Both the position numbers and the translations under genes were made by a program. The notes beneath the pieces are model-generated. The model did no database searches. It saw only the letters and a list, made by a program, of their open reading frames with translations, and was not told where the DNA came from. A DNA stretch of 64,000 nucleotides from Catellatospora sp. IY07-71 (GTDB lineage: Bacteria > Actinomycetota > Actinomycetes > Mycobacteriales > Micromonosporaceae), in assembly GCF_018326265.1 (NCBI RefSeq), contig NZ_AP023360.1, positions 4,373,501 through 4,437,500 of the forward strand, in the 5' to 3' direction. This document shows positions 31,103 through 50,591 of this stretch, piece by piece. Within the stretch, counting starts at the first letter, position 1. Each line of letters starts with the position of its first letter.

Positions 31103-32374
31103 TCAGGCGGGGAGAGGGGTGGCCGTGATGGTTCCGGTGGTGCGGGCCTGTTCGGCGGCCCAGACGACGCGGTGGCCGGCGAGGCTGGTGGCGGCGTCGG
31201 AGTTGAGGAGCTTGGCGTTGCCGGTGGCGACGGCGCCGAGGAAGGCGTCCATGATGGCCTCGTCGCCGCCGCCGTGCCCGTCGGCCGCGGTGCCTCCGGC
31301 GGTCAGCCCGGTGTCGACGGTGCGCTGCTCGCCGGTGCGGAAGTCGGTCAGGTGCAGCAGGCGGCCGTCGCCGTCGAGCTGGCCGTGGGTGCCGAACAGG
31401 CGGGTGCGCCGGTTCTCCATCGGCGTGAACGCGGTCATGGTGAAGGTGCAGGTCGCGCCGTCGGGGAACTCCATCGCGACCACCTGGTGGTCGACCACGT
31501 TGTTGTCGGCGTCGTAGACGCAGCGCCCGTACGGGCCGGTGCGCAGCGCGGTGTCGATGCCGTCCGGGGTGTGGTCGCGGGTCACCGCCGACAGCGGCCA
31601 GAACTCCCGGGCCGGGTCGCCCAGGCAGGAGCGGTAGAGCCGGGGCGCGGAGTACGCGCAGCGCGGTTCGAGGGGGCAGTCCAGGCACCGGTCGGCGGCG
31701 CCCTCGGGCCGCTGCTCGGGGCGGAAGTGGGTGAGCCCGCCGAACGAGCTGACCCGGCTGGGCGCGGTGCCGAACAGGTACAGCAGCCAGTCGATGTCGT
31801 GGCAGGACTTCGTCAGCAGCAGCGGCGCGGACGTCTCGGAGTTGTTCCAGTGGCCGCGCACGAACGAGTGCGCGAAGTGCCACCAGCCGATCGGCTCCAG
31901 GTGCTGCACGTTCACCAGCCGCCCGATCGCGTCCTCGTCCAGGAGCTTCTTCAGCGCCTGCGTGTACGGGGTGTAGCGCAGCACGTGGCACACGGCGAGC
32001 ATGACCCCGGCCCGGTCCACGGCCTCGGTGATGCGCAGCGCGTCCGGCTCCGTGGTGGCCATCGGCTTTTCCAGGAGTATGTGATAACCCAGCCCCGCGA
32101 ACGCGACGGCGGCGTCGGCGTGGGTCTGGTCCTGGGTGGCGATCACGACCGCCTCGGCCAGCCGCCCCGCCCCGGCGAGGTCGGCCCAGTCGGCGTAGAC
32201 GTGCTCGGCGGGCACCCCGAACTCGGCCGCGAACGCCGCCCGGCGTGCGGGGTCGGGCTCGGCCACGGCGACCACGCGGGCGCCGGTGGCGGCGGCGTGC
32301 CGGGCGTACCCGATACCGCGCAGCCCGGCACCTGCCACGACCAGCCGCACCCCGTCTACAGTCATCTCAGCCAT
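31103..32374 (-). CDS. Gfo/Idh/MocA-family NAD(P)-dependent protein (oxidoreductase or GH109-type glycosidase)
   Basis: A 423-residue protein. A Rossmann domain opens VRLVVAGAGLRGIGYARHAA and contains LLEKPMATT, the EKP signature with its active-site Lys. The second domain reads SFVRGHWNNSETSAPLLLTK and SCHDIDWLLYLFG. A cysteine cluster (CLDCPLEPRC...YRSC, about residues 235-255) is typical of one subgroup. Known members are sugar or inositol dehydrogenases, but the same fold includes GH109 NAD-dependent alpha-N-acetylgalactosaminidases. The gene is divergent from a ROK regulator and a sugar importer, so a sugar substrate is likely. Start ATG 32374 or 32365; neither has a good ribosome site. 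Confidence 0.8.
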   Translation of the reverse strand: MAEMTVDGVRLVVAGAGLRGIGYARHAAATGARVVAVAEPDPARRAAFAAEFGVPAEHVYADWADLAGAGRLAEAVVIATQDQTHADAAVAFAGLGYHILLEKPMATTEPDALRITEAVDRAGVMLAVCHVLRYTPYTQALKKLLDEDAIGRLVNVQHLEPIGWWHFAHSFVRGHWNNSETSAPLLLTKSCHDIDWLLYLFGTAPSRVSSFGGLTHFRPEQRPEGAADRCLDCPLEPRCAYSAPRLYRSCLGDPAREFWPLSAVTRDHTPDGIDTALRTGPYGRCVYDADNNVVDHQVVAMEFPDGATCTFTMTAFTPMENRRTRLFGTHGQLDGDGRLLHLTDFRTGEQRTVDTGLTAGGTAADGHGGGDEAIMDAFLGAVATGNAKLLNSDAATSLAGHRVVWAAEQARTTGTITATPLPA

Positions 32375-32391
32375 CCCAGGAGGAGTTACTT

Positions 32392-32420
32392 TTGAAGGTC
32401 TCCATCATTAGTAACATGAT
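32392..32420 (+). promoter_or_regulatory. Probable promoter of the ROK regulator
   Basis: TTGAAG (32392-32397), 17 bases, then CATGAT (32415-32420), 27 bases before GTG 32448. The 73-base divergent gap is A/T-rich and has an inverted pair GTTAC (32385) and GTAAC (32411). It must also hold the promoter of the Gfo/Idh gene. Confidence 0.45.
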
Positions 32421-32447
32421 TACCCGACGCGCAAAAGGGGGCCGACG

Positions 32448-33614
32448 GTGACCGAACAACTGGCGGGCGGGGATCTGTCCCGGTTGCGGCAGCTCAACGC
32501 GCTCGCGGTGGTGCACGTGCTGCGCGGCCGCGAGGCGCTGACGCTGACCGAGCTGTCCCGCGACACCGGCCTGTCCCGCCCCTCGACCGAGGACGTGGTG
32601 CTTCAGCTCCAGGAGCAGGGCTGGCTGGAGGAGGTACAGCCCGCGCCCGGGGTGATGGGCCGCCCGGCCCGGCGCTACCGGTTCCGCGCCGACGCGGGCC
32701 ACGTGCTGGGCGTCGACATCGGCGGGCACACCATCCGGGTGCTGGCCGCAGACCTGGACGGGCAGGTCAAGCACACGGTGCGCACGCCGGTGGCGATCAC
32801 CGCGGGCCGGGTTGACCGGCTCGGCGCGGTTGACGCGGCCGTGGCCGAGTGCCTGTCCGGGGCGGGGCTGGGCGGCGGTGACGTGTGGGCGACCACGGTC
32901 GGCACCAGCGGCCTGGTCGATGCGTCCGGCCGGGTCGTGCTGTCGGTGGCGTTCCCCGAGTGGACCGGGGTGCACCTGGCGCAGCACGTCGGGCGGCTGG
33001 TCGGCGGCCCGGTGCTGGTCGAGAACGACAGCCGGCTGGCCGCGCTGGCCGAGACCTGGCGCGGCGTGGCCCGCTACGCCCAGCACGTGGTCTACCTGCT
33101 GGCGGGCCTGCGTACGGGCACCGGCCTGATCATCGACGGGCGGCTCCACCGGGGCTTCGCGCAGGCCGCGGGCGAGATCGGCGCGCTGCCCGAGCTGGGC
33201 TGGATCCGGGCCCAGGAGCACCTGCGCGGCTGGACCGGCGCCCCGGCCGGCACCGACCCGGACGAGCTGGCGGGCTACGTGTTCGCCGCCGCGCGCGAGG
33301 GCGACCGGAAGGCCGTGGCAGTGGTCCGCCGCTACGCCAAGGATCTGGCGCTGGGTGCGTCCGCGCTGGTCTTGGCGCTGGACCCGCAGCTGGTGGTGCT
33401 CGGTGGCGGCTTCTCCCGCTCGGCCGACGTGCTGCTCGAACCGCTGCGCCGCGAGATCGAGAAGCGCTGCGTACGCATCCCGGAGATCGTCACCTCGGCG
33501 CTGGGCGACGAGGCGGTGGCGCTCGGCGCGGTCAAACACTCGCTCGAACATCTGCAGGAGCATCTCTTCGACGCGCGCACCGGGGTAGCCGCACCCGTCC
33601 GACCTGGGCGTTGA
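32448..33614 (+). CDS. ROK-family transcriptional regulator
   Basis: A 388-residue NagC/XylR-type regulator. The N-terminal winged helix (LRQLNALAVVHVLRGREALT, LSRDTGLSRPSTEDVVLQL) precedes a ROK domain with VLGVDIGGHTIRVLAADLDG, VENDSRLAALAE and an AQAAGEIGALP segment. The CxCGxxGC zinc motif of ROK kinases is absent, as expected for a repressor. Sugar binding in the ROK domain should release DNA. Its neighbours are the divergent Gfo/Idh gene and the downstream ABC-GH135-GH114 operon, probably its targets. Start is GTG 32448. Confidence 0.87.
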   Translation: MTEQLAGGDLSRLRQLNALAVVHVLRGREALTLTELSRDTGLSRPSTEDVVLQLQEQGWLEEVQPAPGVMGRPARRYRFRADAGHVLGVDIGGHTIRVLAADLDGQVKHTVRTPVAITAGRVDRLGAVDAAVAECLSGAGLGGGDVWATTVGTSGLVDASGRVVLSVAFPEWTGVHLAQHVGRLVGGPVLVENDSRLAALAETWRGVARYAQHVVYLLAGLRTGTGLIIDGRLHRGFAQAAGEIGALPELGWIRAQEHLRGWTGAPAGTDPDELAGYVFAAAREGDRKAVAVVRRYAKDLALGASALVLALDPQLVVLGGGFSRSADVLLEPLRREIEKRCVRIPEIVTSALGDEAVALGAVKHSLEHLQEHLFDARTGVAAPVRPGR

Positions 33615-33639
33615 CGCTCCGGAGCGGTCAACCCATGGC

Positions 33640-33677
33640 TGGACTCTTGACAAACTTATTCAGGAGTCCATTAATAC
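33640..33677 (+). promoter_or_regulatory. Promoter with overlapping inverted repeat ahead of the sugar-importer operon
   Basis: TTGACA at 33647-33652 and TAATAC near 33672. An inverted repeat TGGACTCTTGA-N9-TCAGGAGTCCA (33640-33670, one mismatch) covers the -35 and spacer. It is a strong candidate operator for the ROK regulator encoded just upstream. About 115 bases of leader follow to the importer start. Confidence 0.6.
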
Positions 33678-33794
33678 TGGGCAGCGCATGTGATGCGGGT
33701 CCCGACGGCACCGGGTGGTGTCACGCCACTCGACGGCCCCACGCGACCCGGGTGATTCCCCGATGATGTTGCTCTGGCGAGAAGGGTTCCTCAG

Positions 33795-35060
33795 ATGTGG
33801 AAAGCAGTGCGGACCGGCGCGGCCGTGATGGCCGCCGCCGTGCTCGCGGTGACCGTGGCGGGCTGCGGCGCCGACGAGCCGACCGCGGGCGCTGACGAGA
33901 AGGCGACGCTGTCCTACGCGGTGTGGGACAAGAACCAGGTCCCGGTGATGGAGGAGCTCGCGGCCGCCTTCACCGAGGACCACCCGAACATCACGGTCGA
34001 GGTCCAGCTCACCCCGTGGGCCGACTACTGGACCAAGCTGCGGGCCGCGGTCACCGGCGGCGCCGCCCCGGACGTGTTCTGGATGAACGGCCCGAACGTC
34101 CAGCTCTACGCCGACAACGGTGTGATCATGCCGCTGGCGGACAAGGTCGCCGAGGCGAAGCTGGACCTGGGCGTGTACCCGAAGGCCCTGGTCGACCTGT
34201 ACACCTTCGAGGGCAAGATCTACGGCCTGCCGAAAGACTTCGACACCGTCGGCGTCTGGTACAACAAGGAGCTCTTCGACGCGGCCGGCGTGAAGCACCC
34301 GGCCGCCGGGTGGACCTGGGACGACTTCAAGGCCGCCGCCGCCAAGCTGAGCAACCCGGCCAAGGGCCAGTACGCCGTCGGCGCCAACATCGCCGGCCAG
34401 GAGTACTTCTACAACACCATCTACCAGGCCGGCGGCAACGTGATCTCGGCCGACGGGAAGAAGTCGGGCTACGACGACCCGGCCACCATCGAGGGCCTGC
34501 GCTTCTGGACCGACCTGATCAAGAACAAGCAGTCGCCGGACCTGAAGACGATGACCGACACCCACCCGATCCAGCTCTTCGAGTCCGGCAAGCTCGCCAT
34601 GTACTGGGGCGGCTCCTGGAACGTCACCGAGTTCGGCAACAACGAGTACACCAAGACCCGCGTCGACGCCGCGCCGCTGCCGACCGGGGTCAAGCAGGCC
34701 ACCATCATCCACGGCCTGGCCAATGTGGTCTCGGCGAAGACGAAGTACCCGGCGCAGGCGTGGGAGTTCGTGAAGTTCCTCGGCTCGAAGCCCGCCGCCG
34801 AGATCCTCGGTAAGAAGGGCCCGATCCCGGCGTACACCGGCACCCAGGACGCCTGGCTCGCCGCCAACGCCAAGTTCAACGGCAAGGTCTTCCTGGACGC
34901 GGTGAGCTACGCGGTGCCCTACCCGGTGTCGCGCAACACCGCCGCCTGGAACGACGAGGAGTTCAAGCAGCTGACCAAGGCGTACACCGGTGAGGTGCCG
35001 GTGGAGCAGGCGGCGAAGGAGCTTGCCACCCAGATGAACGCCCTGCTGGCCAAGGAGTAA
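33795..35060 (+). CDS. Sugar ABC transporter substrate-binding lipoprotein
   Basis: A 421-residue extracellular solute-binding protein (family 1). The signal peptide ends in a lipobox VTVAGC (Cys24). The mature protein opens ATLSYAVWDKNQVPVMEELA and has the usual APDVFWMNGPNVQLY and YNKELFDAAG segments. It should be anchored outside the membrane and deliver oligosaccharides to the two permeases that follow. No ATPase gene is in the operon, so a shared MsiK-type ATPase elsewhere is likely. The two secreted galactosaminidase-type enzymes downstream suggest amino-sugar oligosaccharides as ligand. Confidence 0.9.
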   Translation: MWKAVRTGAAVMAAAVLAVTVAGCGADEPTAGADEKATLSYAVWDKNQVPVMEELAAAFTEDHPNITVEVQLTPWADYWTKLRAAVTGGAAPDVFWMNGPNVQLYADNGVIMPLADKVAEAKLDLGVYPKALVDLYTFEGKIYGLPKDFDTVGVWYNKELFDAAGVKHPAAGWTWDDFKAAAAKLSNPAKGQYAVGANIAGQEYFYNTIYQAGGNVISADGKKSGYDDPATIEGLRFWTDLIKNKQSPDLKTMTDTHPIQLFESGKLAMYWGGSWNVTEFGNNEYTKTRVDAAPLPTGVKQATIIHGLANVVSAKTKYPAQAWEFVKFLGSKPAAEILGKKGPIPAYTGTQDAWLAANAKFNGKVFLDAVSYAVPYPVSRNTAAWNDEEFKQLTKAYTGEVPVEQAAKELATQMNALLAKE

Positions 35061-35068
35061 CCGACACC

Positions 35069-36043
35069 ATGGTGATGACCGAGGAGGGCATCGCGGCCGA
35101 CCGCGCCGCGGTGCCCGCCCCGGCGCCCGGGGGCCGTGCCCGCCGCCCGCGCCGGTGGACCGCCGAGGCGGGGTGGGCGTACCTGCTCATCGCGCCGACC
35201 GGGCTGGGGCTGGCCGTGTTCTACCTGTGGCCCGTCCTGCAGACCGGGTACTTCTCCTTCACCGAGTGGGGCCCGTTCGGCGGGCACGAGTGGGTGGGGC
35301 TGGACAACTACCGGGCCCTGGCCGCCGACACCGAGGTGCGCCAGGCGCTGGTCAACACGCTGCTGTTCGCGCTGCTCGGCCTGCTCGGCATCCCGCTCGC
35401 GATCGTCTTCGCGGCGCTGCTCAACCGGCCGAAGCTGCGCGGCGTCTCGGTGTACCGCGCGCTGTTCTTCATCCCCGTGGTGACCATGCCGGTCGCCGTG
35501 GCGATGGTCTGGCGCTGGCTCTACAACGGCGACTTCGGCCTGGTCAACCAGTTCCTGTCGGTGTTCGGCGTGGAGGGCCCGCACTGGATCGCCGACCCGG
35601 CCACCGCGCTGTACGCGCTGGTGGCGGTGTGCATCTGGGCCGGGCTCGGCTACAACATCGTGGTCTTCCTGGCCGGGCTGCAGGCGATCCCGCGCGAGTT
35701 CTACGAGGCCGCCGAGATCGACGGGGCCGGGCCGGTGGCGCAGTTCCGGCGGGTCACCCTGCCGCTGCTGTCACCGTCGATCTTCTTCGTCTCGGTGCTC
35801 TCGGTCATCGGCTCGCTGCAGCTGTTCGACCTGGTGTACGTGATGGCCGGCAGCGGCCAGGCGGCCCGCTCGAACCCGGCCATGCCCCGCATCCAGACCG
35901 TCGTGGGGCTGTTCTACGACAAGGCGTTCTACACCAACGACCGCGGCTACGCGGCCGCGATCGTGATGGCGCTGCTCGTCCTCATCGTGGTGTTCACCGC
36001 GATCCAGTTCCGGCTGCAGAAGCGGTGGGTGCACTATGGCTGA
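35069..36043 (+). CDS. Sugar ABC transporter permease (MalF type)
   Basis: A 324-residue permease with six predicted membrane segments (YLLIAPTGLGLAVFYLWPVL first). The cytoplasmic EAA loop reads EAAEIDGAGPVAQFRRVTLP. The N-terminal 35 residues are a basic cytoplasmic extension. It should form a heterodimer with the following permease. Start is ATG 35069 (or ATG 35075), 8 bases after the lipoprotein stop. Confidence 0.9.
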   Translation: MVMTEEGIAADRAAVPAPAPGGRARRPRRWTAEAGWAYLLIAPTGLGLAVFYLWPVLQTGYFSFTEWGPFGGHEWVGLDNYRALAADTEVRQALVNTLLFALLGLLGIPLAIVFAALLNRPKLRGVSVYRALFFIPVVTMPVAVAMVWRWLYNGDFGLVNQFLSVFGVEGPHWIADPATALYALVAVCIWAGLGYNIVVFLAGLQAIPREFYEAAEIDGAGPVAQFRRVTLPLLSPSIFFVSVLSVIGSLQLFDLVYVMAGSGQAARSNPAMPRIQTVVGLFYDKAFYTNDRGYAAAIVMALLVLIVVFTAIQFRLQKRWVHYG

Positions 36044-36866
36044 GCCCCGGACGGCGCAGGGCCGGATGGCCGGCACGCACGGCACGCTGATCCTCGGCGC
36101 GGCCGTGATGGTGATCCCGTTCGCCTGGCAGCTGCTCACCTCGCTGAAGACGCTGACCAACGCCACCCGGGTGCCGCCGACCCTCGCGCCGGACTGGCGC
36201 TGGGCGAACTACGCCCAGGTGTTCGAGCTGCTGCCGTTCGGCGACCAGTTCCTCAACACCGTCCTGGTCGCCGTCGCGCGCACCGCCGGGCAGCTGCTGT
36301 TCTGTTCGATGGCGGCGTACGCGTTCGCGCGGCTGCGCTTCCCCGGCCGGGGCCTGCTGTTCGGGCTGTTCCTGTCCGTGCTGATGGTGCCGCCGGCGCT
36401 GTTCGTCATCCCGCAGTACGAGATCATGGCCGATCTGGGCTGGCTCAACAGCCTCGGCGCGATCATCGCGCCCGGCCTGTTCTCCGCGTTCGGCGTGTTC
36501 CTGCTGCGGCAGTTCTTCCTCGGCCTGCCCCGGGAGCTGGACGAGGCGGCCCGCCTCGACGGGGCCGGGCCGCTGCGCATCTACTGGTCCGTCATGCTGC
36601 CGCTCGCCAAGCCCGGCCTGCTGGCGCTCGGCATCCTCGTGGTGTTGGCGTCCTGGAACGACCTGTTCTGGCCGCTGATCGTCAACACCGACCCGGAGCA
36701 GATGACCCTGTCGGCGGGCCTGGCCTCGCTCCAGGGCCAGTTCCAGACCGACTACCCGGTGCTGATGGCCGGGTCGCTGCTCGCCTCGCTGCCGGTGATC
36801 GTGGTGTTCACCGTGCTGCAGCGCCACTTCATCCAGGGCATCGCCTTCAGCGGCAACAAGAGCTGA
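36036..36866 (+). CDS. Sugar ABC transporter permease (MalG type)
   Basis: A 276-residue permease with about six membrane segments (LILGAAVMVIPFAWQLLTSL, LLFGLFLSVLMVPPALFVIP). The EAA loop is DEAARLDGAGPLRIYWSVML. ATG 36036 overlaps the previous gene by 8 bases, indicating translational coupling. It forms the second half of the importer channel. Confidence 0.9.
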   Translation: MAEPRTAQGRMAGTHGTLILGAAVMVIPFAWQLLTSLKTLTNATRVPPTLAPDWRWANYAQVFELLPFGDQFLNTVLVAVARTAGQLLFCSMAAYAFARLRFPGRGLLFGLFLSVLMVPPALFVIPQYEIMADLGWLNSLGAIIAPGLFSAFGVFLLRQFFLGLPRELDEAARLDGAGPLRIYWSVMLPLAKPGLLALGILVVLASWNDLFWPLIVNTDPEQMTLSAGLASLQGQFQTDYPVLMAGSLLASLPVIVVFTVLQRHFIQGIAFSGNKS

Positions 36867-36906
36867 CCCCCAACCCCCTCACATACCCCAGATCGGAGAC
36901 ACGACC

Positions 36907-38742
36907 ATGCTGCATCGGCATGGCCGCGGACGCCTGCACCTCCGGGCGGCGGCCGTACTCACCGCACTGCTCCTCATCCCGGCCGCGCCCGCGCAGGCGA
37001 GCGGCCTCCCCGACCCGGCGTCGCAGCAGCTCGCGGTGCCCGCGTACTTCTACCCGGGCGGCGACGGCGCCGCCCTCTGGCAGCGGCTCAACGCGCCGGG
37101 CGTCGGCATCGCCGTGGCGAACCCCTTCTCCGGCCCCGGCAAGACCCGGGACCCCAACTACGCTGCGGCCATCGCCGCCGCGAAGGCAGCGGGGGTACGC
37201 GTGCTCGGCTACGTCGCGACCGGCTACCTCGGCACCACCGGCCGCGCGACGCGGCTCAACGAGACCACCCCGGCGGCCTGGGCCGCGCAGGTCCAGCAGG
37301 ACGTGGCCACCTGGTACCGGCTCTACGGCGCGGACGGCCTGGGCGGCATCTTCTTCGACGAGGTGCAGAACGTCTGCGGCCCGCAGGACGCCTACGTCAA
37401 GACCTACCGCGAGCTGGACCGGCACGTGCGGCGCGCGTTTCCCGGCGCGTTCACCGTGGTCAACCCGGGCATCGACACCGAACCGTGTTACGCGGACGTC
37501 GGCGACGTGATCCTCACCTTCGAGGGCACCTACGAGACCTACCTCGGCTGGCAGCCCCCGGCGTGGCACCGCGCGCTCGATCCGCGCCGGTTCTGGCACC
37601 TGGTGCACGCCACGGACACGACCGAGCAGCTGGCGAACGCGGTCGCGCTGAGCAAGCAGCGCCAGGCGGGCTACCTCTACGTCACGCCGGACGTGCTGGC
37701 CAACCCGTGGGACTCGCTGCCGCCGGACGCCTACTGGAACGCGCAGCTCGCCGCGGCGACCGACCACGGCGGCGACACTGCCGCGCCCCGCGTGTACGGC
37801 ACGCCGCTGGCCGTGCACACCACCTCGACCGAGGCGACCGTGGGCTGGCTGCCCGCCGCCGACGACGGCCGCGTCACCGGGTACGACGTGTACCTCGACG
37901 GGGTCCGGGTCACCGGCACGCTGAACGCGATCCCGCTGGTCACGCTGCACGGGCTCGACCCGGCGCGGTCCTACCGGGTGGCCGTCGCCGCGCGGGACGC
38001 GGCGGGCAACGTCTCCGCGCCCGGCCGGGCCGCGACGGTGACCACGAAGGCCGCCGACGCGTCGGCGCCCGCCGCCCCGGCCGGGCTGCGTGCCGCCGAG
38101 ACCAAGGTCGCCAGCGTGCGGCTGGCCTGGGACGCCTCCACCGAGGCCGACCTCGCGGGCTATGACGTCGAGGTGAACGGGCAGCCGCTGCTGTCGCTGC
38201 CGTCGTGGCTGGTCACGGCCGGGGACACGGTCAGCGTGCCGGTCAGCGGGCTGGAGCCGGGCACGGCGTACACGTTCACGGCGTACACCCGCGACAGCAG
38301 CGGCAACCGCTCGGCCGCCGCCGGGCCGCTGACCGTCACCACGACGGTGCCCTCCGGCGACCCGATCACCGGCGCGAGCGGCGTGATCGATGCCGACGGC
38401 GTGACCTACCAGGCGGCCTTCAACCTGCCGTTCGACTTCCACCACCTGTTCATCGACGTCGACGACGACGCCACCACCGGGTTCGCCACGGCCGGCATCG
38501 GCGCCGATCTGCTCATCGAGAACGCCTGGTTCTACCGCCACACCGGCACCGGCTGGAGCTGGGCGCCGGTGGACGGGCCGAGCCCGCTCGTGTCCAGCGA
38601 CGACGACCACTACGTCTGGCGCGTGCCCGCGTCCGTGCTGTCCGACGTGCTCGGCGGCGCGCCGGTCGGCCCGCACCGGGCGGTCTTCCACGGCTCCGGC
38701 AGCTCGCCGGAGACCTACACCGCAGTGATCACCATCAGCTGA
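36907..38742 (+). CDS. Secreted spherulin-4/GH135-type glycoside hydrolase with two Fn3 domains
   Basis: A 611-residue exported protein. A signal peptide covers residues 1-31. Residues 40-290 are a spherulin-4 domain (LAVPAYFYPGGDGAALWQRL, IAVANPFSGPGKTRDPNY, GVRVLGYVATGYLG, GIFFDEVQN), which is the GH135 TIM barrel. Fungal Sph3, the characterised GH135 enzyme, cleaves galactosaminogalactan as an endo-alpha-1,4-N-acetylgalactosaminidase. Two fibronectin type III domains (about 295-380 and 390-480) and a DOMON-like C-terminal beta domain follow. The gene is 40 bases after the importer permease and 25 bases before the GH114 gene, so it belongs to the same operon. Confidence 0.8.
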   Translation: MLHRHGRGRLHLRAAAVLTALLLIPAAPAQASGLPDPASQQLAVPAYFYPGGDGAALWQRLNAPGVGIAVANPFSGPGKTRDPNYAAAIAAAKAAGVRVLGYVATGYLGTTGRATRLNETTPAAWAAQVQQDVATWYRLYGADGLGGIFFDEVQNVCGPQDAYVKTYRELDRHVRRAFPGAFTVVNPGIDTEPCYADVGDVILTFEGTYETYLGWQPPAWHRALDPRRFWHLVHATDTTEQLANAVALSKQRQAGYLYVTPDVLANPWDSLPPDAYWNAQLAAATDHGGDTAAPRVYGTPLAVHTTSTEATVGWLPAADDGRVTGYDVYLDGVRVTGTLNAIPLVTLHGLDPARSYRVAVAARDAAGNVSAPGRAATVTTKAADASAPAAPAGLRAAETKVASVRLAWDASTEADLAGYDVEVNGQPLLSLPSWLVTAGDTVSVPVSGLEPGTAYTFTAYTRDSSGNRSAAAGPLTVTTTVPSGDPITGASGVIDADGVTYQAAFNLPFDFHHLFIDVDDDATTGFATAGIGADLLIENAWFYRHTGTGWSWAPVDGPSPLVSSDDDHYVWRVPASVLSDVLGGAPVGPHRAVFHGSGSSPETYTAVITIS

Positions 38743-38767
38743 TCCCCTCCACCGAAGCGAGGTGCCC

Positions 38768-41700
38768 ATGAACCGCCAAGCTCATCCGCACCGCACCGCT
38801 CCACCCGCGCGCCGGGGCATCGCCCGGCTGCTCGCCGCGGCCCTGCTCGCCGCCACCGCGCTGACCGCCGGGTTCGTCGCCACCGCGGCGACCCCGGCGG
38901 CCGCGGCCGGCTTCGAGATCGGCCGCACCCCGTTCTACGGCAAGGTCCCCACGCTCAACCAGCACAGCCGCACCGCGTTCTGGTACGGCGCGGTCGACCA
39001 GGCGAAGGTCAACCAGCTCAAGGCGTACGACCTGGTGGTCCTCGAACCGACCCTGCGCGTGCTGAACGTGACCAACGACCACTTCTACTTCGAGTCCGTC
39101 ACGTCCGCGCAGGTGCAGGAGATCAAGCGCGGCGTGGACGGGGCGCTGGGCACCGCCGACGACGTGATCGTGCTCGGCTACCTGTCGGTCGGCGAGATGC
39201 TGCCGACGATCATCCCCGGCCACAGCGGGCACATGACCATCCAGAAGGGCATCGAGCTGGGCCTGCTGCCCGCGGGCTACGGCGGCCCGTCCGGCCCGCT
39301 GCACGGCCCGAACCCGTGGAACTACAACGCCGCCGGCTCGTACCTGAACGTCGAGGGCGGCGCGACCCCGGACGGCACCTACGAGGACGGTTACGCCAAC
39401 TACGCCGGAACCTCGATCGGCGCGAACTACTCGTCCTGGGGCAACCGCCTGACCTGGCGCAACAACGGCGTCATGCCGTGGTACCTGGACCAGCAGGGCA
39501 CCTGGGTCAACGACAGCCGGTACCTGTACGGCGGCTACTGGAAGGACGGCGACGGCACCGTCGACGTCAACCCGACCTACGGCGGCGGGTACATCAACGG
39601 CGGCGACCCGGCCTGGCAGAAGTTCGTCACCTACCAGGTCGACAAGATCGTGCACGACGGCGACTACGACGGCGTCTTCCTGGACACCGTGGACACGCCC
39701 GACCCGGTCGGCGGCGCGGGACCCGGCATCTCGTGGGGGCCGCGCGGCAACTTCGGCTTCACCGCGGGCGGCATGGTCGACCTCGTCGAGAAGATCAAGG
39801 CGGTGGACCCGAGCAAGGTCGTCGCCTCGAACCGGGGCTACTGGTACTTCAACCCCGACGAGGGCACCTCGCAGTTCGCCACCCGCTACCGGCACGCGAT
39901 CAACATCTTCGTCACCGAGAGCTGGTACTACAACACGTACATCCCGGGCTTCTACGACACCAGCCCCGGGTTCGAGGCCAACTGGAACACGAACACCGCC
40001 TCGCCGACCTACCGCAGCCGGGACAACTTCGGCGGGTTCTGGAAAGACTATGTGAACGCGCAGGCCAACCAGGCCGACGGGTTCAACGTGGCGATCATCG
40101 ACTTCCGGGTGCCCGCCTCGGGCACGCAGAAGTGGATGAACGAGGTCGTGGGCAACTCCGACTACCTCGCCTACGACGTCTCGGGGGCGAACCACTTCAA
40201 CTCGGCCGTGTACGACGACGCCAAGAACTGGCTCGACGCGCAGGGCCTGGCCGCGCCGGCGCAGACGGGGGCGCACCCGACCGACCTCTACGGCGGGTTC
40301 GTCGCGGACGGCAGCACGGGGGAGTGGAACGCGGAGACGCCGATCTTCAGCGACGCCGCGGGGAACAACGGCAAGGGCATCACGAAGGTCTACGTGAAGT
40401 TCGTCGGGGACCGGTTCTTCATGATGGTCGAGGCGAAGCAGACCATCAGCCTGGCCCAGGAGATGATCTACTTCGACTACGACAAGGACGGGCCGACGGG
40501 CTGGCAGCCGTCCTGGCCGACCTCGCCGGACTCCCGGATCTACCTGGAGAACCTGAACCAGGCGTACCTGCTGCCGCACGCCGGGGCCGGGCAGGGCGAC
40601 GTGTTCAAGTTCAGCAGCCCCAGCGCCCCGACGAACCGGGGCTGGCCGGTGCGGGTGGTGCAGTCCGGCACCCGTGCCGAGTTCGAGTTCGACCGCAACT
40701 ACGTGTTCCCGGCCGCGATGGCGGGCACGGAGGTGTGGACCTGGCTGCGGGTGGCCAACTTCGGCGGGTCGTCGGTGCGGTTCACCGTGCCCGGCGGCGG
40801 CACCCCGCCGTCCCCGTCCCCGACCCCGTCCAGCTCGCCGCCCCCGGCACAGCCGCCGGTGATCTCGAACGTGCAGTACTCGAACGTCACCACGACCGGC
40901 GCGACGGTCACCTGGACCACGGACGTGGCCTCGTCGTCGGTGGTCGAGTACGGCACCACGACGTCGTACGGCTTCACCGCGACCGGTGCGAACAACGTGA
41001 CCAGCCACTCGGTCACGCTCTCAGGGCTGTCGCCGGGCACGGCGTACCAGTTCCGGGTGCGCTCGGTGTCCACGGGCGGCACCACCAGCAGCCCCAACGG
41101 CACGTTCACCACCGCGACGAGCGGCGGGAGCTACCCGGCGATCACCGTCGACGGGTCGGCCGGTGACTGGGGGAGCGTCACCCCGGTGCTGACCGGCAGC
41201 ACCACCGTGCAGTCGCTGTCGGTGACCAACAACGCCACCAACCTGTATCTGCTGGCGCGGGGCACCGGCCTGAACGTGCTCGGCCAGTTCTACCTGAACA
41301 CCGACAACAACACCGGCACCGGCTACAACGCGACCGGCTGGACCAACCCGTCCGGCGCGGACTACCTGCTGGAGAACGGCAACCTCTACCGGCACGCCGG
41401 CGGCGGCTGGGCCTGGACGTCCCTCGGCGCGGTCACCTTCAGCCGCAACGACACCGTGGCCGAGGCGGCGATCCCGCTGTCCACGCTCGGCCTGTCACCA
41501 GGCTCGCAGCTACGGGCGGGCTACCTGAAGAACAACTCCGCGACCGACCGGCTCCCGGCCGCGAGCGGCACGTTCCCGGTGGTCACCCTGCTCAACGGCT
41601 CGGGCGGCGGTGGCGGCGCACCCGTCATCAGCAACGTGCAGTACGCCAACGTCACCACGACCGGCGCGACGGTCACCTGGACCACGGACGTGGCTTCGTC

Positions 41701-42355
41701 GTCGGTGGTCGAGTACGGCACCACGACGTCCTACGGCTCGACCGCGACCGGCGCGAACAACGTGACCAGCCACTCGGTCACGCTCTCGGGGCTGTCGCCG
41801 GGCACGGCGTACCAGTTCCGGGTCCGCTCGGTCGCCACGGGCGGCACCACCAACAGCCCCAACGGCACCTTCACCACGGCGACGAGTGGCGGCGGCACAC
41901 CGTCGATCACGGTCGACGGCAACGCGGGCGACTGGGCGGCCGTCACCCCGGTGCTGTCCGGCGGCACCGGCGTCCAGTCGGTGTCGGTCACCAGCAACGG
42001 CACCACGCTCTACCTGTGCGTCAAGGGCACCGGCCTGAACGTGCTCGGCCAGTTCTTCCTCAACACCGACAACAGCACCGCCACCGGCTACAACGCCGCG
42101 GGTTGGACCAACCCGTCCGGCGGCGACTACATGCTGGAGAACGCCAACCTCTACGACCACGGCGGCAGCGGCTGGTCCTGGACCCCGCTCGGCGCGATGA
42201 CCTTCGCCCGCAACGACACCGTCGTCGAAGCCGCCATCCCCCTGTCCACCCTCGGCCTGGCCCCCGGCGCCCAACTCCGCCTCGGCTACATCAAGAACAA
42301 CACCACCGACCGCCTCCCCACCCCCTCCGGCACCTTCCCCTTGATCACCCTCTGA
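38768..42355 (+). CDS. Secreted multidomain GH114-type endo-alpha-1,4-polygalactosaminidase-like protein
   Basis: A 1195-residue exported protein starting at ATG 38768 (signal peptide to about residue 48). Residues 55-495 resemble GH114, the Glyco_hydro_114/PelA-type TIM barrel (AFWYGAVDQAKVNQLKAYDL, VIVLGYLSVGEM, DGVFLDTVDTPDP, VVASNRGYWYF). Known GH114 enzymes cut alpha-1,4-polygalactosamine. Residues 510-675 are a DOMON/CBM9-like beta domain (DGSTGEWNAETPIFSD). A Pro/Ser linker at 680-695 follows, then two repeats of an Fn3 domain plus a similar beta domain (VDGSAGDW..., VDGNAGDW...). It probably releases oligosaccharides taken up by the adjoining importer. A family A repeat lies directly after the stop. 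Confidence 0.8.
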   Translation: MNRQAHPHRTAPPARRGIARLLAAALLAATALTAGFVATAATPAAAAGFEIGRTPFYGKVPTLNQHSRTAFWYGAVDQAKVNQLKAYDLVVLEPTLRVLNVTNDHFYFESVTSAQVQEIKRGVDGALGTADDVIVLGYLSVGEMLPTIIPGHSGHMTIQKGIELGLLPAGYGGPSGPLHGPNPWNYNAAGSYLNVEGGATPDGTYEDGYANYAGTSIGANYSSWGNRLTWRNNGVMPWYLDQQGTWVNDSRYLYGGYWKDGDGTVDVNPTYGGGYINGGDPAWQKFVTYQVDKIVHDGDYDGVFLDTVDTPDPVGGAGPGISWGPRGNFGFTAGGMVDLVEKIKAVDPSKVVASNRGYWYFNPDEGTSQFATRYRHAINIFVTESWYYNTYIPGFYDTSPGFEANWNTNTASPTYRSRDNFGGFWKDYVNAQANQADGFNVAIIDFRVPASGTQKWMNEVVGNSDYLAYDVSGANHFNSAVYDDAKNWLDAQGLAAPAQTGAHPTDLYGGFVADGSTGEWNAETPIFSDAAGNNGKGITKVYVKFVGDRFFMMVEAKQTISLAQEMIYFDYDKDGPTGWQPSWPTSPDSRIYLENLNQAYLLPHAGAGQGDVFKFSSPSAPTNRGWPVRVVQSGTRAEFEFDRNYVFPAAMAGTEVWTWLRVANFGGSSVRFTVPGGGTPPSPSPTPSSSPPPAQPPVISNVQYSNVTTTGATVTWTTDVASSSVVEYGTTTSYGFTATGANNVTSHSVTLSGLSPGTAYQFRVRSVSTGGTTSSPNGTFTTATSGGSYPAITVDGSAGDWGSVTPVLTGSTTVQSLSVTNNATNLYLLARGTGLNVLGQFYLNTDNNTGTGYNATGWTNPSGADYLLENGNLYRHAGGGWAWTSLGAVTFSRNDTVAEAAIPLSTLGLSPGSQLRAGYLKNNSATDRLPAASGTFPVVTLLNGSGGGGGAPVISNVQYANVTTTGATVTWTTDVASSSVVEYGTTTSYGSTATGANNVTSHSVTLSGLSPGTAYQFRVRSVATGGTTNSPNGTFTTATSGGGTPSITVDGNAGDWAAVTPVLSGGTGVQSVSVTSNGTTLYLCVKGTGLNVLGQFFLNTDNSTATGYNAAGWTNPSGGDYMLENANLYDHGGSGWSWTPLGAMTFARNDTVVEAAIPLSTLGLAPGAQLRLGYIKNNTTDRLPTPSGTFPLITL
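40859..42355 (+). repeat. Internal duplication of an Fn3 plus beta-domain module
   Basis: The segment beginning at 40859 recurs from 41624, an offset of 765 bases (255 codons). The Fn3 halves (40859-41110 and 41624-41875) are nearly identical at the DNA level; the beta-domain halves are similar but more divergent. This points to a fairly recent in-frame duplication. Confidence 0.85.
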
Positions 42356-42405
42356 AAGGAAGGGCACCTTCTTATCGTTTTCCGAGGTAGAAGGTGCCCT
42401 TCCTA
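42356..42405. repeat. Family A palindromic repeat, copy 4
   Basis: Arms AGGAAGGGCACCTTCT and AGAAGGTGCCCTTCCT around TATCGTTTTCCGAGGT. It starts immediately after the GH114 stop and would be a strong hairpin at the end of the operon transcript. Confidence 0.9.
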
Positions 42406-42474: not shown

Positions 42475-43446
42475 ATGGGTGACTTCGTCTTCGACCATGA
42501 ACGCGTCGGGCCCTCGCTCGCCGCGATGGAGGCCCGCTTCGACGACGTCGCCGCGCGCCTGCGCACCGTGTACGGCCTGCGCCTGCCCCGCCACCTGGCC
42601 GTCTTCGCCGCGTACCTCGCCGCGATCGACGTCCCCGGCAGGCGCGCCCTGGCCGACGGCGTCGGCGTCAGCTCCGGCGGCATCGTGCGCTACTTCGAGG
42701 ACGGCGGCCTCGCGCTGACCGGCCGCGACGGCCTCGACGAGCGGCTGGACTGCCGGTTCCGCTGCGACGCGCCCGAGTTCGTCACCGTGCTGTGGGGCGA
42801 CACCGACGGGCTCCACTTCGGACTGTGGTACGACGACCCCGCCGAGCTGCCCACCCAGGTGGTGCACAACTACGCCCGCGACTCCGCCGAGACCTGGAGC
42901 GAAGCGCTGCCCACGGTGCTGGCCCAGGTGCGCAGGCGCCTCGACGACGCCGAGCAGGACGCCGCCGACGACCCCGACTACGACGCCCCGGACGGCGCCC
43001 GGCAGCGCGCCGAGCTGCTCCGCGCGATCGAGGCGTTCGCCGAGGCCGACGAGCGGGCCTGCGCGCAGGACGGGCCGGTGCGCTGGCGGGGCACGCCGCG
43101 CCCGGCGATCCTCGGCGGGTTCGGGCCCGCGCTGCCGGAGGGCTCCGGCGACCCGCGCGGCGGCTACGAGCGCTACGACGAGCGGTATCAGGCTTATCGG
43201 GCGCGCTCGCCGCTGGTACGGGAGTGGATCGCCGACGCCGAACGGGAGCTGGCGGCCGGGCTGCCCGCGTACGCCCTGGTCCTGGGTAGGGAGCTGCACT
43301 GGCTCGACGCCCCGGACCACCGCGAGGACGCGCTGCGCCTGCTGACCGGTGCATACCGGGCACTGGGGCGGGACGCGCTCGCCGAGATCGCGACCGTGCA
43401 CTACGCGAACCGCGACCTGCGCTCGGTGGAGGTGCTGGTGTCCTGA
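42475..43446 (+). CDS. HPF1-like (DUF2228) protein
   Basis: A 323-residue cytoplasmic protein. Residues 92-130 (CRFRCDAPEFVTVLWGDTDG, LHFGLWYDDPAELP) and the ending (ALRLLTGAYRALGRDALAEI, then HYANRD) parallel eukaryotic HPF1 as I recall it, in the segments with DPPEF, GYFRDSPDEFP and LAEIIEEHLANR. HPF1 completes the PARP1/2 active site for serine ADP-ribosylation. Its catalytic Glu lies in a segment that here reads AAGLPAYALVLG, so that residue appears absent. Bacterial relatives are annotated as ADP-ribosylation family proteins with no known function. There is no PARP-like gene beside it. ATG 42475 is 11 bases after GGAGGAGGG. Confidence 0.62.
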   Translation: MGDFVFDHERVGPSLAAMEARFDDVAARLRTVYGLRLPRHLAVFAAYLAAIDVPGRRALADGVGVSSGGIVRYFEDGGLALTGRDGLDERLDCRFRCDAPEFVTVLWGDTDGLHFGLWYDDPAELPTQVVHNYARDSAETWSEALPTVLAQVRRRLDDAEQDAADDPDYDAPDGARQRAELLRAIEAFAEADERACAQDGPVRWRGTPRPAILGGFGPALPEGSGDPRGGYERYDERYQAYRARSPLVREWIADAERELAAGLPAYALVLGRELHWLDAPDHREDALRLLTGAYRALGRDALAEIATVHYANRDLRSVEVLVS

Positions 43447-46122: not shown

Positions 46123-46173
46123 TTAAGAAGGTGCCCTTCCTCTACGGAAAACGATAAGAAGGTGCCCTTCCTT
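46123..46173. repeat. Family A palindromic repeat, copy 5 (direct arms)
   Basis: Two arms AAGAAGGTGCCCTTCCT in the same orientation around CTACGGAAAACGAT. Like copy 1, but in the opposite sense. It abuts the stop codon of the LacI gene (46174-46176). Confidence 0.88.
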
Positions 46174-47187: not shown

Positions 47188-48083
47188 CAGCTTTTCACAG
47201 ACCCGCCGGACAGGTCCGTGCGCCAGTACCGCTGCATGGTCAGGAACAGCGCGATCAGCGGGATGATCGACAGCAGCGCCCCGGTGATCACCAGGTTGTA
47301 CAGCGCGGGCTGGTTGGCCCCGGTGGCCAGCAGCGTGTAGAGGCCGACGGTGAGCGGGAAGCGCTCGTCGTCGGCGAGCATGATGAAGGGCAGCAGGAAG
47401 TTGTTCCAGATCGCCACGAACTGGAACAGGAAGATCGTCACCATGCCCGGTCCCATCAGCGGCAGCGCCACCACCCGCAGCAGCCGGTGCTCGCCCGCCC
47501 CGTCGATCCGGCCCGCCTCCAGCAGCGCGTCCGGGATCGCCGCGGCGGCGTAGATCCGGGCGAGGTAGATGCTGTACGGGTGCAGGATGCTGGGCAGCAG
47601 CACCGCCCAGTACGTGTTGGCCAGCCCGGCCTTGGCCAGCAGCAGGTACTGCGGGACCGCCAGCACCACGGCCGGCACCAGGATGCCGCCGATCAGCACG
47701 TTGAAGATGGCGTTGCGGCCGAAGAACCGGAACTTGGCCAGGGCGTACCCGGCCAGCACCGACACCGCCGTGGACAGCAGCGCGCCGACGCCCGCGTACA
47801 GCGCGGTGTTGGCCATCCACTGCCAGAAGATCCCGTCCCGGTACGCCGACAGGTCCGCGATGTTGTCCAGCAGCCCCGTGCCCGGCGTGAACGCGTTCGA
47901 CGTGAACAGCTCGCCGCGGGTCTTGGTGGACGCGGCGAGCACCCAGCACACCGGCAGCAGGCAGTACAGCGCCCCGAGCAGCAGCACGGCCGTGGGCGCG
48001 AGCCCGAACCCCCGGCGTACCCCACGCGGCCGAGGCTTCTCCGCCTCGACGCGCGTGCGCGGCTTCTCCGCGACGGCGGTCAT
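47187..48083 (-). CDS. Sugar ABC transporter permease (MalG/GanQ type)
   Basis: A 298-residue permease. A basic N-terminal extension precedes about six membrane segments (APTAVLLLGALYCLLPVCWV, FNVLIGGILVPAVVLAVPQY). The EAA loop reads LEAGRIDGAGEHRLLRVVAL. Overlaps both neighbours by one to four bases, showing tight coupling in an operon of substrate-binding protein, two permeases and LacI. No ATPase is encoded here. Confidence 0.9.
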   Translation of the reverse strand: MTAVAEKPRTRVEAEKPRPRGVRRGFGLAPTAVLLLGALYCLLPVCWVLAASTKTRGELFTSNAFTPGTGLLDNIADLSAYRDGIFWQWMANTALYAGVGALLSTAVSVLAGYALAKFRFFGRNAIFNVLIGGILVPAVVLAVPQYLLLAKAGLANTYWAVLLPSILHPYSIYLARIYAAAAIPDALLEAGRIDGAGEHRLLRVVALPLMGPGMVTIFLFQFVAIWNNFLLPFIMLADDERFPLTVGLYTLLATGANQPALYNLVITGALLSIIPLIALFLTMQRYWRTDLSGGSVKS

Positions 48084-49006
48084 CTTTCCTCCCCGAACGC
48101 CTGGCGGCGCACCAGCCGCATGAACAGCAGCGACGGCACCACCGAGATCACCGCGATGACCAGCGAGGTGGCCGCCGCCGAGTAGAGGTCGCCGTTGATG
48201 AACGCGTCCGTGTACACCTTCATCAGCGGGCTCCAGGTGGAGCTGACCGCATTCGAGATGGGCCGCAGCGTCATCGGCTCGGTGAACACCTGGATGGTCG
48301 CGATGATGGAGAACACCGTGGTCAGCACCAGCGCCGGGGCCAGCATCGGCACCTTGACCCGCAGCGCGATGGCCAGCTCGCCCGCCCCGTCGATGCGGGC
48401 CGCCTCGTAGTAGTCGCGGGGGATGGCCCGCAGCTGCGTGTAGAGGACCAGCATGTTGAACCCGGTGCCGCCCCAGATCGCGACGTTGACCATCGAGAAC
48501 AGCACCGTGCTCGGGTCGAGCAGGTCCACGTTCTCCACCCCGAACGCGCGCAGCGTGGCGTGGATCGGGCTCAGGCTGGGCAGGTAGAGGAAGCCCCAGA
48601 GCAGGGTGGCGACCACGCCCGGCACCGCGTACGGCAGGAAGATCGCGATGCGGGAGAAGCGGGCCAGCCGCACCCGGGCCGAGTCCAGCAGCAGCGCGAA
48701 CACCAGCGCCAGCCCCAGCATCAGGGTCAGCACCAGCCCGGCGTACCCGAGCACGCGCAGCCAGCCCGCCCAGAACTCGCCGTCGGCGACGGCGGCCCGG
48801 TAGTTGTCCAGCCCGGCGAAGATCTCGGTGCGCGAGTTCTTGCCCAGGCCCAGGCCGGAGAACTTGACCCGGCGCATGCTCAGGTAGGCCGTGTAGCCGA
48901 TCGGCGCGGCCACGAACAGCGTGAACAGCACGACCGCCGGGGCCAGGTACAGGTAGGGGGTGGCGCCCGCGCGGTGTACGCGGGCGCCCTTCTGTGCCGT
49001 GGACAT
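48080..49006 (-). CDS. Sugar ABC transporter permease (MalF/GanP type)
   Basis: A 308-residue permease with six membrane segments beginning YLYLAPAVVLFTLFVAAPIG. The EAA motif is YEAARIDGAGELAIALRVKV. The 4-base ATGA overlap with the next permease and 3-base gap from the binding protein indicate one transcript. Expected to import beta-1,4-galacto-oligosaccharides. Confidence 0.9.
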   Translation of the reverse strand: MSTAQKGARVHRAGATPYLYLAPAVVLFTLFVAAPIGYTAYLSMRRVKFSGLGLGKNSRTEIFAGLDNYRAAVADGEFWAGWLRVLGYAGLVLTLMLGLALVFALLLDSARVRLARFSRIAIFLPYAVPGVVATLLWGFLYLPSLSPIHATLRAFGVENVDLLDPSTVLFSMVNVAIWGGTGFNMLVLYTQLRAIPRDYYEAARIDGAGELAIALRVKVPMLAPALVLTTVFSIIATIQVFTEPMTLRPISNAVSSTWSPLMKVYTDAFINGDLYSAAATSLVIAVISVVPSLLFMRLVRRQAFGEER

Positions 49007-49009
49007 GGG

Positions 49010-50305
49010 TCAGCCGGCCAGCGTGAAGCCGGACTTCTTCATGTCGGCGACCGTCGCGTCCTGCACCGCCGCGAGCGCGTCGGAGAAGGAGGACTTCTGC
49101 TGCACCGCCTTGTCGAAGGCGTCCTTGTACGCGCCGTACGCCACGTTGACGTTCGGGCCGAAGGTGAAGCCGCGCGCGGTGCCCGCGATGGTGGTGGCCT
49201 GCTGCCAGAAGTCGGGCTGGTTGGCGAAGTACTCCGGCGCCGTGGTCAGCAGCTTCTGCCCGCTCTTGGCGGCCGGGTAGATGGCGGCCTCCTTGATCAG
49301 CAGGTCGACGGCCTTGGCGTCGGTGTTGAGCCAGCTCAGGAACTGCGCGGCGGCCTTGCGGTGCTTGCTGCCCGCGGACACCGCGATCGACGAGCCGCCC
49401 CAGAAGCCGGAGTAGCTCTCCCCGGCGCTCCACTGCGGCAGCGGCGCGATCGCCCACTTGCCCTTGCCGTCAGGGGCGTTGCTGGACAGCACGCCCGGAC
49501 CCCAGACCGCCGACGCCCAGGTCAGCAGCTTGCCCCCGTTGAGCGCGGCGTTCCACTCCGGCGTCCACGGCGCCTGCGTGTCGACGGCGCCCTCCTTGGC
49601 CAGGCCGCCCCAGAAGTCGGCGACCTTCTTCGTGGCGTCGTCGTTGATGCCGACCTTCCACGCCTCGCCGGTGATGGCCCACCACTGGCCGCCCGCCTGC
49701 TGCGACAGCCCGGCGAACCAGCCCGGGTCCTTCGTGGAGAACCCGCCCAGGTAGACGCTCTTGTCCTTGGCGCGCACCGTCCTCGCCGCGGCGGCGTACT
49801 CGTCCCAGGTCTTCGGCACGGCGATGCCGTACTTAGCGAACAGGTCCTGGCGGTAGTAGAGCATCATCGGGCCGCTGTCCTGCGGCAGCCCGTACACGGC
49901 GTCCGTGCCCAGGGTGACCAGGCTCCAGATGCCGTCGGAGAACTCGCCGCGCACGCCCTCGACGTCGGCCTTGATGTCGGCGACCGCCTCGGCGGCCACG
50001 AACGACGGGAGCATCTGGTACTCGGCCTGCACCAGGTCGGGCGCGTTGCCCGCCTTGGCCGCGGTGAGGAACTTCGCCGCCGCCTCGTCGCCGCCGGCCT
50101 GCTTGCTGACCGTGACCTTGATGTCGGGGTGCGCCTCGTTCCACACCGCCGCGATCTTGTCCATGTTGGGCGCCCAGGTCCAGAAGGTCAGCTCGACCGG
50201 TCCGGTCTCCTGCGGGGTCTGCTCCTCCGCGCCGCTCGAACAGCCCGCCACGAGGGCGCCGGCGAGCAGCACGGACAGCGCCGCGCTGAGCCGCTTGGTA
50301 CGCAT
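49010..50305 (-). CDS. Sugar ABC transporter substrate-binding lipoprotein (galactan oligosaccharides)
   Basis: A 431-residue family 1 solute-binding lipoprotein. The signal peptide ends at the lipobox LVAGC (Cys22). The mature start VELTFWTWAPNMDKIAAVW is typical, with DLVQAEYQMLPSF and MMLYYRQDLFAKYG further in. ACGGAGGACCT precedes the ATG. A perfect LacI operator lies 27 bases upstream, so the importer should be repressed without galactan. Galactan specificity is inferred from the GH42 and GH53 neighbours. Confidence 0.9.
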   Translation of the reverse strand: MRTKRLSAALSVLLAGALVAGCSSGAEEQTPQETGPVELTFWTWAPNMDKIAAVWNEAHPDIKVTVSKQAGGDEAAAKFLTAAKAGNAPDLVQAEYQMLPSFVAAEAVADIKADVEGVRGEFSDGIWSLVTLGTDAVYGLPQDSGPMMLYYRQDLFAKYGIAVPKTWDEYAAAARTVRAKDKSVYLGGFSTKDPGWFAGLSQQAGGQWWAITGEAWKVGINDDATKKVADFWGGLAKEGAVDTQAPWTPEWNAALNGGKLLTWASAVWGPGVLSSNAPDGKGKWAIAPLPQWSAGESYSGFWGGSSIAVSAGSKHRKAAAQFLSWLNTDAKAVDLLIKEAAIYPAAKSGQKLLTTAPEYFANQPDFWQQATTIAGTARGFTFGPNVNVAYGAYKDAFDKAVQQKSSFSDALAAVQDATVADMKKSGFTLAG

Positions 50306-50331
50306 AGGTCCTCCGTCAAAAGGCGAAATCT

Positions 50332-50347
50332 CTGTGAACGTTCACAG
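50332..50347. promoter_or_regulatory. LacI operator of the importer operon
   Basis: CTGTGAACGTTCACAG, a perfect 16-base palindrome. It lies near the expected transcription start of the minus-strand promoter (TTGACG 50384-50379, 17 bases, CAGACT 50361-50356), so bound repressor would block initiation. Confidence 0.85.
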
Positions 50348-50355
50348 TGCGCCAC

Positions 50356-50384
50356 AGTCTGCGCTGCCGTATCGAGCCCGTCAA
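50356..50384 (-). promoter_or_regulatory. Predicted promoter of the galactan importer operon
   Basis: Read on the minus strand: TTGACG, 17-base spacer, CAGACT. The start would fall at about 50349, inside or next to the operator. The -10 is weak, as is common in actinobacteria. Confidence 0.5.
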
Positions 50385-50426
50385 GGCCCCGTGTCCGAGG
50401 CGTTACACGAGGGTTGCGGCCCTCAT

Positions 50427-50501: not shown

Positions 50502-50549
50502 AAGCGGCCCGCCCCGGGGGACCCTTCCCGGCCGGACCCGGCTCGGCTA

Positions 50550-50565: not shown

Positions 50566-50591
50566 ACGTACCGTGCTTTCAGGGGGATCCT

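Follow-up and report, generated by a model that had tools for sequence, protein, structure and literature searches.

A putative catabolic locus for galactosamine-containing exopolysaccharides in Catellatospora sp. IY07-71

Analysis of a 64,000-nucleotide stretch of the genome of Catellatospora sp. IY07-71 (hereafter the window; contig NZ_AP023360.1, positions 4,373,501 to 4,437,500, part of a genome that consists of a single contig of 8.6 Mb) led to a locus at window positions 31103-42355 encoding a Gfo/Idh/MocA-family protein, a ROK-family regulator, a sugar ATP-binding cassette (ABC) importer and two predicted secreted enzymes, which we call A and B. Judged from its sequence, this locus probably serves the catabolism of an exopolysaccharide from other microbes that contains α-1,4-linked galactosamine/N-acetylgalactosamine, either bacterial Pel or fungal galactosaminogalactan (GAG). 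Enzyme A belongs by sequence to glycoside hydrolase (GH) family GH135, enzyme B appears to have its nearest relatives in GH166 and GH191, and some related importer loci carry varying combinations of hydrolases from the same functional group.

Gene content and conservation

All genes were found at the positions given in Table 1 with clear family matches and a G+C content at third codon positions of 0.93-0.99, which bears out the gene list of an earlier reading made from the nucleotide sequence alone (the sequence-only reading). A collinear run on the plus strand holds the genes for the ROK protein, the solute-binding protein (SBP), the two permeases and both enzymes. The SBP gene follows the ROK gene after 180 bp and ends 8 bp before the first permease gene; the two permease genes overlap by 8 bp, and A and B come after gaps of 40 bp and 25 bp, respectively. 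By eye, the ATG at 38768 is a likelier start for B than the GTG at 38762. The single operon proposed earlier is compatible with the run from ROK to B, whereas the Gfo/Idh gene is divergent and therefore lies outside its transcript. Both the helix-turn-helix (HTH) and the ROK domain of the regulator were matched, as were the SBP and permeases of the CUT1-type importer. No ATPase gene is present within the run, in line with the proposed ATPase-less importer with its regulator; the genome encodes six UgpC-type ATPases, one of which scores over the cut-off. The same gene order recurs in Nonomuraea soli as well as in five further loci of Catellatospora, which shows that the arrangement is not due to chance.

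Table 1. Features of the locus (window coordinates)
Feature	Position	Strand	Basis
Gfo/Idh/MocA protein, 423 amino acids	31103..32374	-	PF01408 1.8e-18; orthologues at same position in relatives
ROK-family regulator, N-terminal HTH, 388 amino acids	32448..33614	+	PF00480 7.1e-31, PF09339 2.5e-7
Putative promoter, TTGACA then TTAATA	33647..33678	+	By-eye call in alignment of ROK-SBP spacer
CUT1-type solute-binding lipoprotein (SBP_bac_1)	33795..35060	+	PF01547 6.2e-45; lipobox by eye
Sugar ABC permease 1 (BPD_transp_1)	35069..36043	+	PF00528 1.3e-19
Sugar ABC permease 2 (BPD_transp_1)	36036..36866	+	PF00528 4.2e-20
Enzyme A: signal peptide (by eye), GH135 (Spherulin4), two fn3, C-terminal module	36907..38742	+	PF12138 1.5e-40
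Enzyme B: signal peptide (by eye), ~450-residue catalytic domain, CBM9-like stretch, fn3, module, fn3, module	38768..42355	+	
Perfect 16-bp inverted repeat, right after stop of B	42357..42404	.	Possible transcript end

Relationships of the two hydrolases

Enzyme A matches the Spherulin4 family with 139.7 bits (cut-off 30.2), and a phmmer search of PDB sequences retrieved the Spherulin-4 chain 5d6t at 1.2e-10. Its FFDE and FExTY motifs align with 5d6t and 5c5g, and residues D151, E152 and E206 fall on the adjacent Asp-Glu pair and the subsequent Glu of Sph3-type chains, which we take to be D166/E167/E222 in Sph3 numbering. Because the family match is accompanied by conserved catalytic acids, A is a GH135 protein by the sequence definition of that family, as had been proposed. 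In the accessible text of a study on endo-α-1,4-galactosaminidases the catalytic residues of Sph3-type enzymes are printed as Asp196/Glu222 (PMC12054363).

The GH114 label that the sequence-only reading gave to B had to be abandoned. Comparison of its first 500 residues with Pfam up to an E-value of 10 gave no family, the GH114 profile PF03537 included, and one chance match to DUF3040 at 0.22; such links as were found point to GH166 and GH191 instead. The whole protein matches TIGR01370 (MJ1477/TM1410, the GH191 profile) at 0.0055, but with 15.8 bits stays below the cut-off of 181.25. There is no direct sequence match of B to PelA in the PDB. The two are bridged by a PelA-like protein from a Clostridiaceae metagenome-assembled genome (L020:2499-3911; L and G numbers denote loci and genomes), whose best PDB match is PelA at 1.4e-22 and to which B aligns by BLASTP at 3e-12 over 102 residues; hhalign gives 97.3%, comparing a shallow B profile (Neff 1.4) with a single sequence. 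PF03537 reaches this bridge protein (1.7e-12) yet still misses B. In hhalign comparisons using a GH114 set of 12 rows (9 of 30 loci surviving trimming, plus 3), a GH135 set of 22 rows and a single protein for GH166, B scored 0.2% against GH114 and 3.6% against GH135. Since controls from the known superfamily, run against the GH114 set, were also low (PelA-like protein 27.4%, GH135 5.5%), these values leave room for a distant kinship of B with the two families.

A Foldseek search with an AlphaFold2 model of B placed the PelA GH166 structures 5tcb and 5tsy at ranks 1 and 2 (5tcb with E 2.2e-5 and a target TM-score, TMt, of 0.61), and the GH191 enzyme 9ep5 at rank 13. All 14 relatives compared carry residues D306 and E384 of B (numbering of the 1195-residue protein), which were placed at D160 and E218 of PelA, with the FLDT motif found in alignments and the xES motif and D160 assigned by manual matching and counting; a PelA E218A variant among the matches fixed the numbering. 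The catalytic Glu of PelA is printed as Glu223 in the accessible text of PMC12054363. The nearest relatives of B appear to be in GH166 (PelA) and GH191. It retains both catalytic acids and is a candidate for a new hydrolase family.

The C-terminal repeats of B are related to the C-terminus of A (25% in the alignment), a relation also detected in the sister Catellatospora loci (tblastn 1e-7 to 4e-9). The repeat module of B was modelled with a predicted local distance difference test score (pLDDT) of 96.4, and only two PDB matches were under 1e-3, namely the carbohydrate-binding modules CBM74 and CBM9. Modules of the B type are also carried by a DUF4832 protein of Paenibacillus and by one of 491 amino acids from that genus. 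The latter (L014:15176-16651) has no Pfam match and combines a part that looks like a TIM barrel by eye with a CBM9-like module. Large DUF4832 proteins near B in Paenibacillus (L006:3113-7633 and L014:16697-21256) carry several module copies and SLH anchors; L008:4906-9510 resembles these module-bearing proteins by eye only.

In its catalytic domain, B shares 98% identity with its counterpart in Catellatospora bangladeshensis and 94-95% with those in four other Catellatospora. A pattern scan of 84,980 species genomes found at least 19 loci with B relatives, in Catellatospora, Nonomuraea, Paenibacillus, Cohnella and one Clostridiaceae metagenome-assembled genome. B is present in 8 of 150 genomes of the family, and in a single one of 296 genomes of the class, that of the window itself. 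Within the family it occurs in 8 of 11 genomes with a close Gfo orthologue and in none of the other 139 (Fisher 3e-11, a value inflated by relatedness); counted by genus, this is 2 of 4 versus 0 of 40 (p 0.006). The B protein of Paenibacillus locus L006 resembles the actinobacterial group (75-79%) more than it does the remaining Bacillota sequences (66-73%), and this suggests that B was transferred between phyla. No GH135 gene was seen near B in the 12 Bacillota loci, with the rows of L010 examined in part.

Substrate, proposed pathway and alternatives

The importer genes form a core, defined here as a Gfo gene divergent to ROK-SBP-permease-permease at 60% identity or more, that was found in the window, in the five other Catellatospora loci and in eight further loci (L007, L089, L121, L122, L123, L124, L132 and L140). 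GH135 and B accompany it in all of the Catellatospora loci mentioned, including the window, and in N. soli (L007). Elsewhere the hydrolases change: L089 (G032) combines the core with B and DUF4874/4832, L124 (G024) with GH135 and DUF4874/4832, and L123 (G112) with short pieces of GH135 and DUF4832, so that four of the eight core loci that lie outside Catellatospora have galactosamine-group hydrolases. By comparison, a Spherulin4 gene of any kind is found in 23 of 296 class genomes. According to the accessible text of PMC12054363, activity on GAG or Pel is known for GH135, for GH166 and for one member of GH191; GH166 and that active GH191 member prefer deacetylated stretches. As far as the consulted text of the respective reports goes, an enzyme with a TIM barrel and DUF4832 disperses Pel aggregates (PMC12345266), and some pel operons of Gram-positive bacteria have DUF4832 genes as accessories (PMC7112168).

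Genes of amino-sugar type adjoin some relatives. The run of L089 extends further, into a gene for a SIS protein that has glucosamine-phosphate enzymes as its best solved relatives and into one resembling ROK kinases. Four of five loci examined in genus g29 (L127, L128, L131 and L139) harbor a Gfo relative together with GH114, GH4, DeoR, SIS, two PfkB genes and another importer, the families being named on L127 and assigned in the others by tblastn; the DeoR protein is nearest to AgaR. A tagatose-6-phosphate kinase was considered for the PfkB gene beside GH114 in L127 and rejected, as other models match better. The window genome itself has a DeoR-SIS-ROK-amidohydrolase cluster elsewhere. The substrate of α-1,4-galactosamine type named in the sequence-only reading has gained strength from these amino-sugar-type neighbours and from the swapping of hydrolases around one core.

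The Gfo/Idh protein and its relatives keep a C-x2-C-x5-C cluster in 12 of 12 aligned rows, possibly a metal site. We infer that the protein is a candidate for an NAD(P)-dependent step on the imported sugar or oligosaccharide. Assignment to GH109 was not supported, as no GH109 family is among its Pfam matches; in a PDB comparison, no α-N-acetylgalactosaminidase was among the best 60 of 61 sequences matched.

In the proposed pathway, enzyme A would cut acetylated stretches of the polymer and B, as a GH166/GH191-like endo-enzyme, deacetylated ones, while the CBM9-like modules common to both may hold the enzymes on the polymer. The SBP and two permeases would import the oligosaccharides, presumably powered by a shared ATPase encoded elsewhere. 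The ROK protein may sense a product and control the import and hydrolase run, perhaps also the divergent Gfo/Idh gene. The Gfo/Idh protein would act on what is imported, sugar or oligosaccharide, and catabolism could be completed by amino-sugar genes at other sites in the genome.

Several observations weigh against this interpretation. With respect to B, a profile search of PDB sequences found no endo-galactosaminidase, and confidence in the AlphaFold2 model is low, with a mean pLDDT of 52.6. Its match to the PelA fold has a root-mean-square deviation of 11.9 and a query TM-score (TMq) of 0.27; amylases, fucosidases and a branching enzyme, of low TM-score, occupy ranks 3-12. The accessible text of PMC12054363 also describes another GH191 member as inactive on GAG and FsGH114 as inactive on Pel. 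The run encodes no glycosidase of known intracellular type. L121, L122, L132 and L140 have the core with no such hydrolase in the stretch examined (that of L140 stops at a contig edge, and L122 has a GH30 gene on the opposite strand), and because L007 and L089 were found via B, the independent hydrolase count is two of six. Among 20 matched regions, picked by rank and interest, six had the core, four were of the GH114 type and ten were neither; these ten, lacking the full core and any of five hydrolase types, include L133, L134 and L137 with more distant importers. N. jiangxiensis (L018) has B with no match to this core, and of the 12 Bacillota B loci ten show only distant importer or Gfo matches and two (L013 and L014) none. 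The SIS and AgaR matches are below the cut-offs of NCBIfam (AgaR in g29 with 181 bits against 260), the L089 SIS protein narrowly misses that of Pfam as well (22.6 bits against 25), and the L127 PfkB protein exceeds the cut-off for a general hexose kinase, with 1-phosphofructokinase beating tagatose-6-phosphate kinase. The SIS, DeoR, PfkB and GH4 neighbours thus fit amino-sugar catabolism, with galactosamine and glucosamine undistinguished.

A role of the importer and hydrolases on a different glycan such as galacto-oligosaccharides, with shifted specificity of GH135 and B, appears unlikely. The best NCBIfam match of the SBP is the galactooligosaccharide protein GanS, at 62 bits against a cut-off of 700, and the four core loci devoid of galactosamine hydrolases would fit such a role. 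So would a galactan-type region with an ABC permease, GH42 and GH53 about 6-12 kb downstream (window 48080-54489), but this region has its own permease gene. Moreover, the partners that replace A or B come from families tied to Pel or GAG, and amino-sugar-type genes adjoin some related loci. We regard it as still less likely that the enzymes are a weapon that disperses rival biofilms or attacks fungal walls, the importer being a sensor or incidental. Externally added Pel hydrolases do disrupt biofilms or aggregates in the portions of PMC7112168 and PMC12345266 at hand, but the hydrolases are tightly linked to an SBP and two permeases, and the Catellatospora genome G100, in which B is absent, keeps Gfo and ROK with no importer or hydrolase match in the 20 kb examined.

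Remodelling of a self-made polymer, in which the enzymes would trim the host's own galactosamine polymer as PelA, Sph3 and Ega3 do and the importer would recycle the fragments, is a rather improbable alternative. In its favour, GH114 and sometimes spherulin-4 genes are found in putative actinobacterial exopolysaccharide biosynthetic operons, according to the accessible part of PMC7229062, and neighbouring GH135-GH114 pairs less than 1 kb apart occur 12 times in 11 of 296 actinomycete genomes, the window's included, all 11 being among the 23 genomes with Spherulin4. The pairing itself is therefore not new. However, in 11 of these 12 pair regions (L090-L101) neither the importer described here nor its ROK or Gfo found a match, L098 having weak matches 5 kb away, and five further GH135 or GH114 regions (L102-L106) gave none either; L100-L102 end at contig ends. 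The pairs thus represent an importer-less type separate from that of the window. One of them, L090 (G000:C1:2598505-2599652), is a second Spherulin4 gene in the window genome beside a partial GH114 match, with no match to this importer within 20 kb. Furthermore, no synthase, deacetylase or export gene is among the ten annotated flanking proteins of the window (two with no Pfam match). Pel synthesis by the host was rejected on the finding that none of the 10 genomes that have the locus or the core contains PelG (PF16933), with a positive Thermotoga maritima control; this search did not extend to Agd3/CE18 or GAG-type synthases.

A more far-reaching version of the catabolic reading, which we put forward as tentative and on balance doubtful, is that B represents a further endo-α-1,4-galactosaminidase family exchanged between Actinomycetota and Bacillota, that the core is the first dedicated Pel/GAG-type uptake system, and that the Gfo/Idh protein splits or oxidizes imported oligosaccharides in an NAD(P)-dependent reaction. 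Pel and GAG are bacterial and fungal biofilm polymers whose consumption by soil microbes is little known. The locus offers a testable catabolic system, a hydrolase branch that has no Pfam name, candidate binding modules common to A and B, and a ROK protein that might be used as a biosensor for galactosamine oligosaccharides; locus comparison also ties actinomycete DUF4832 proteins to the same substrate class.

Control elements, neighbouring sequences and comparison with known systems

The candidate promoter in the ROK-SBP spacer is conserved in all five other Catellatospora loci and in G032, and partly in N. soli; a scan for consensus promoters reported none, and the conserved TTGACA/TTAATA site rests on alignment by eye. 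The 16-bp sequence that forms the inverted repeat after B is present 12 times in the window, where shuffling gave an expectation of 0, and its copies often pair up in inverted orientation around a 16-nucleotide spacer (sites at 2354-2400, 3355-3370, 12627-12674, 42357-42404, 46126-46172, 62421-62436 and 63508-63555). Genome-wide there are 65 exact inverted pairs, against 0 for a reversed-pattern control, and their spacers are variable and often partly palindromic themselves. Being one of 65 copies, the hairpin after B does not qualify as a specific terminator, and this assignment was rejected. The gene at 42475-43446 has a match over 50 residues to Histone PARylation factor 1 (PF10228, 2.1e-10), which we judged unusual for a bacterium.

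Actinomycete CUT1 sugar importers consist of a lipoprotein and two permeases, have no ATPase of their own, and are encoded with a local regulator and secreted hydrolases. The window locus shares this plan and differs in its predicted substrate class. The combination of hydrolases, importer and regulator, which the sequence-only reading considered undescribed, is new only in part: GH135-GH114 pairing is already widespread, but its pairing with importer and regulator was not found described, and no uptake locus for Pel or GAG was found in the literature searched, a scope that left out bioRxiv and most subscription journals.

Compared with the endo-α-1,4-galactosaminidases of GH114, GH135, GH166 and GH191, as covered in the accessible text of PMC12054363, A is a GH135 protein by sequence and B has the GH166 motifs with the catalytic Asp and Glu. 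The GH166 and GH191 enzymes differ in size, with PDB chains of 253 (PelA) and 272 (GH191) amino acids versus the Pfam-less B domain of about 450. The operons with GH114 and spherulin-4 near Agd3 homologues, in the part of PMC7229062 consulted, likewise have GH135 beside a second type of endo-galactosaminidase; those operons are putatively biosynthetic, whereas the window locus has an importer, ROK and Gfo/Idh and no synthesis gene. A final parallel is SIR_1591 of Streptococcus intermedius, a TIM-barrel protein with DUF4832, since DUF4832 proteins replace A or B in sister loci. According to the accessible text of PMC12345266, SIR_1591 belongs to a Pel synthesis operon, whereas no such gene is present in the window run; the comparison with the sister-locus proteins covers the DUF4832 part.

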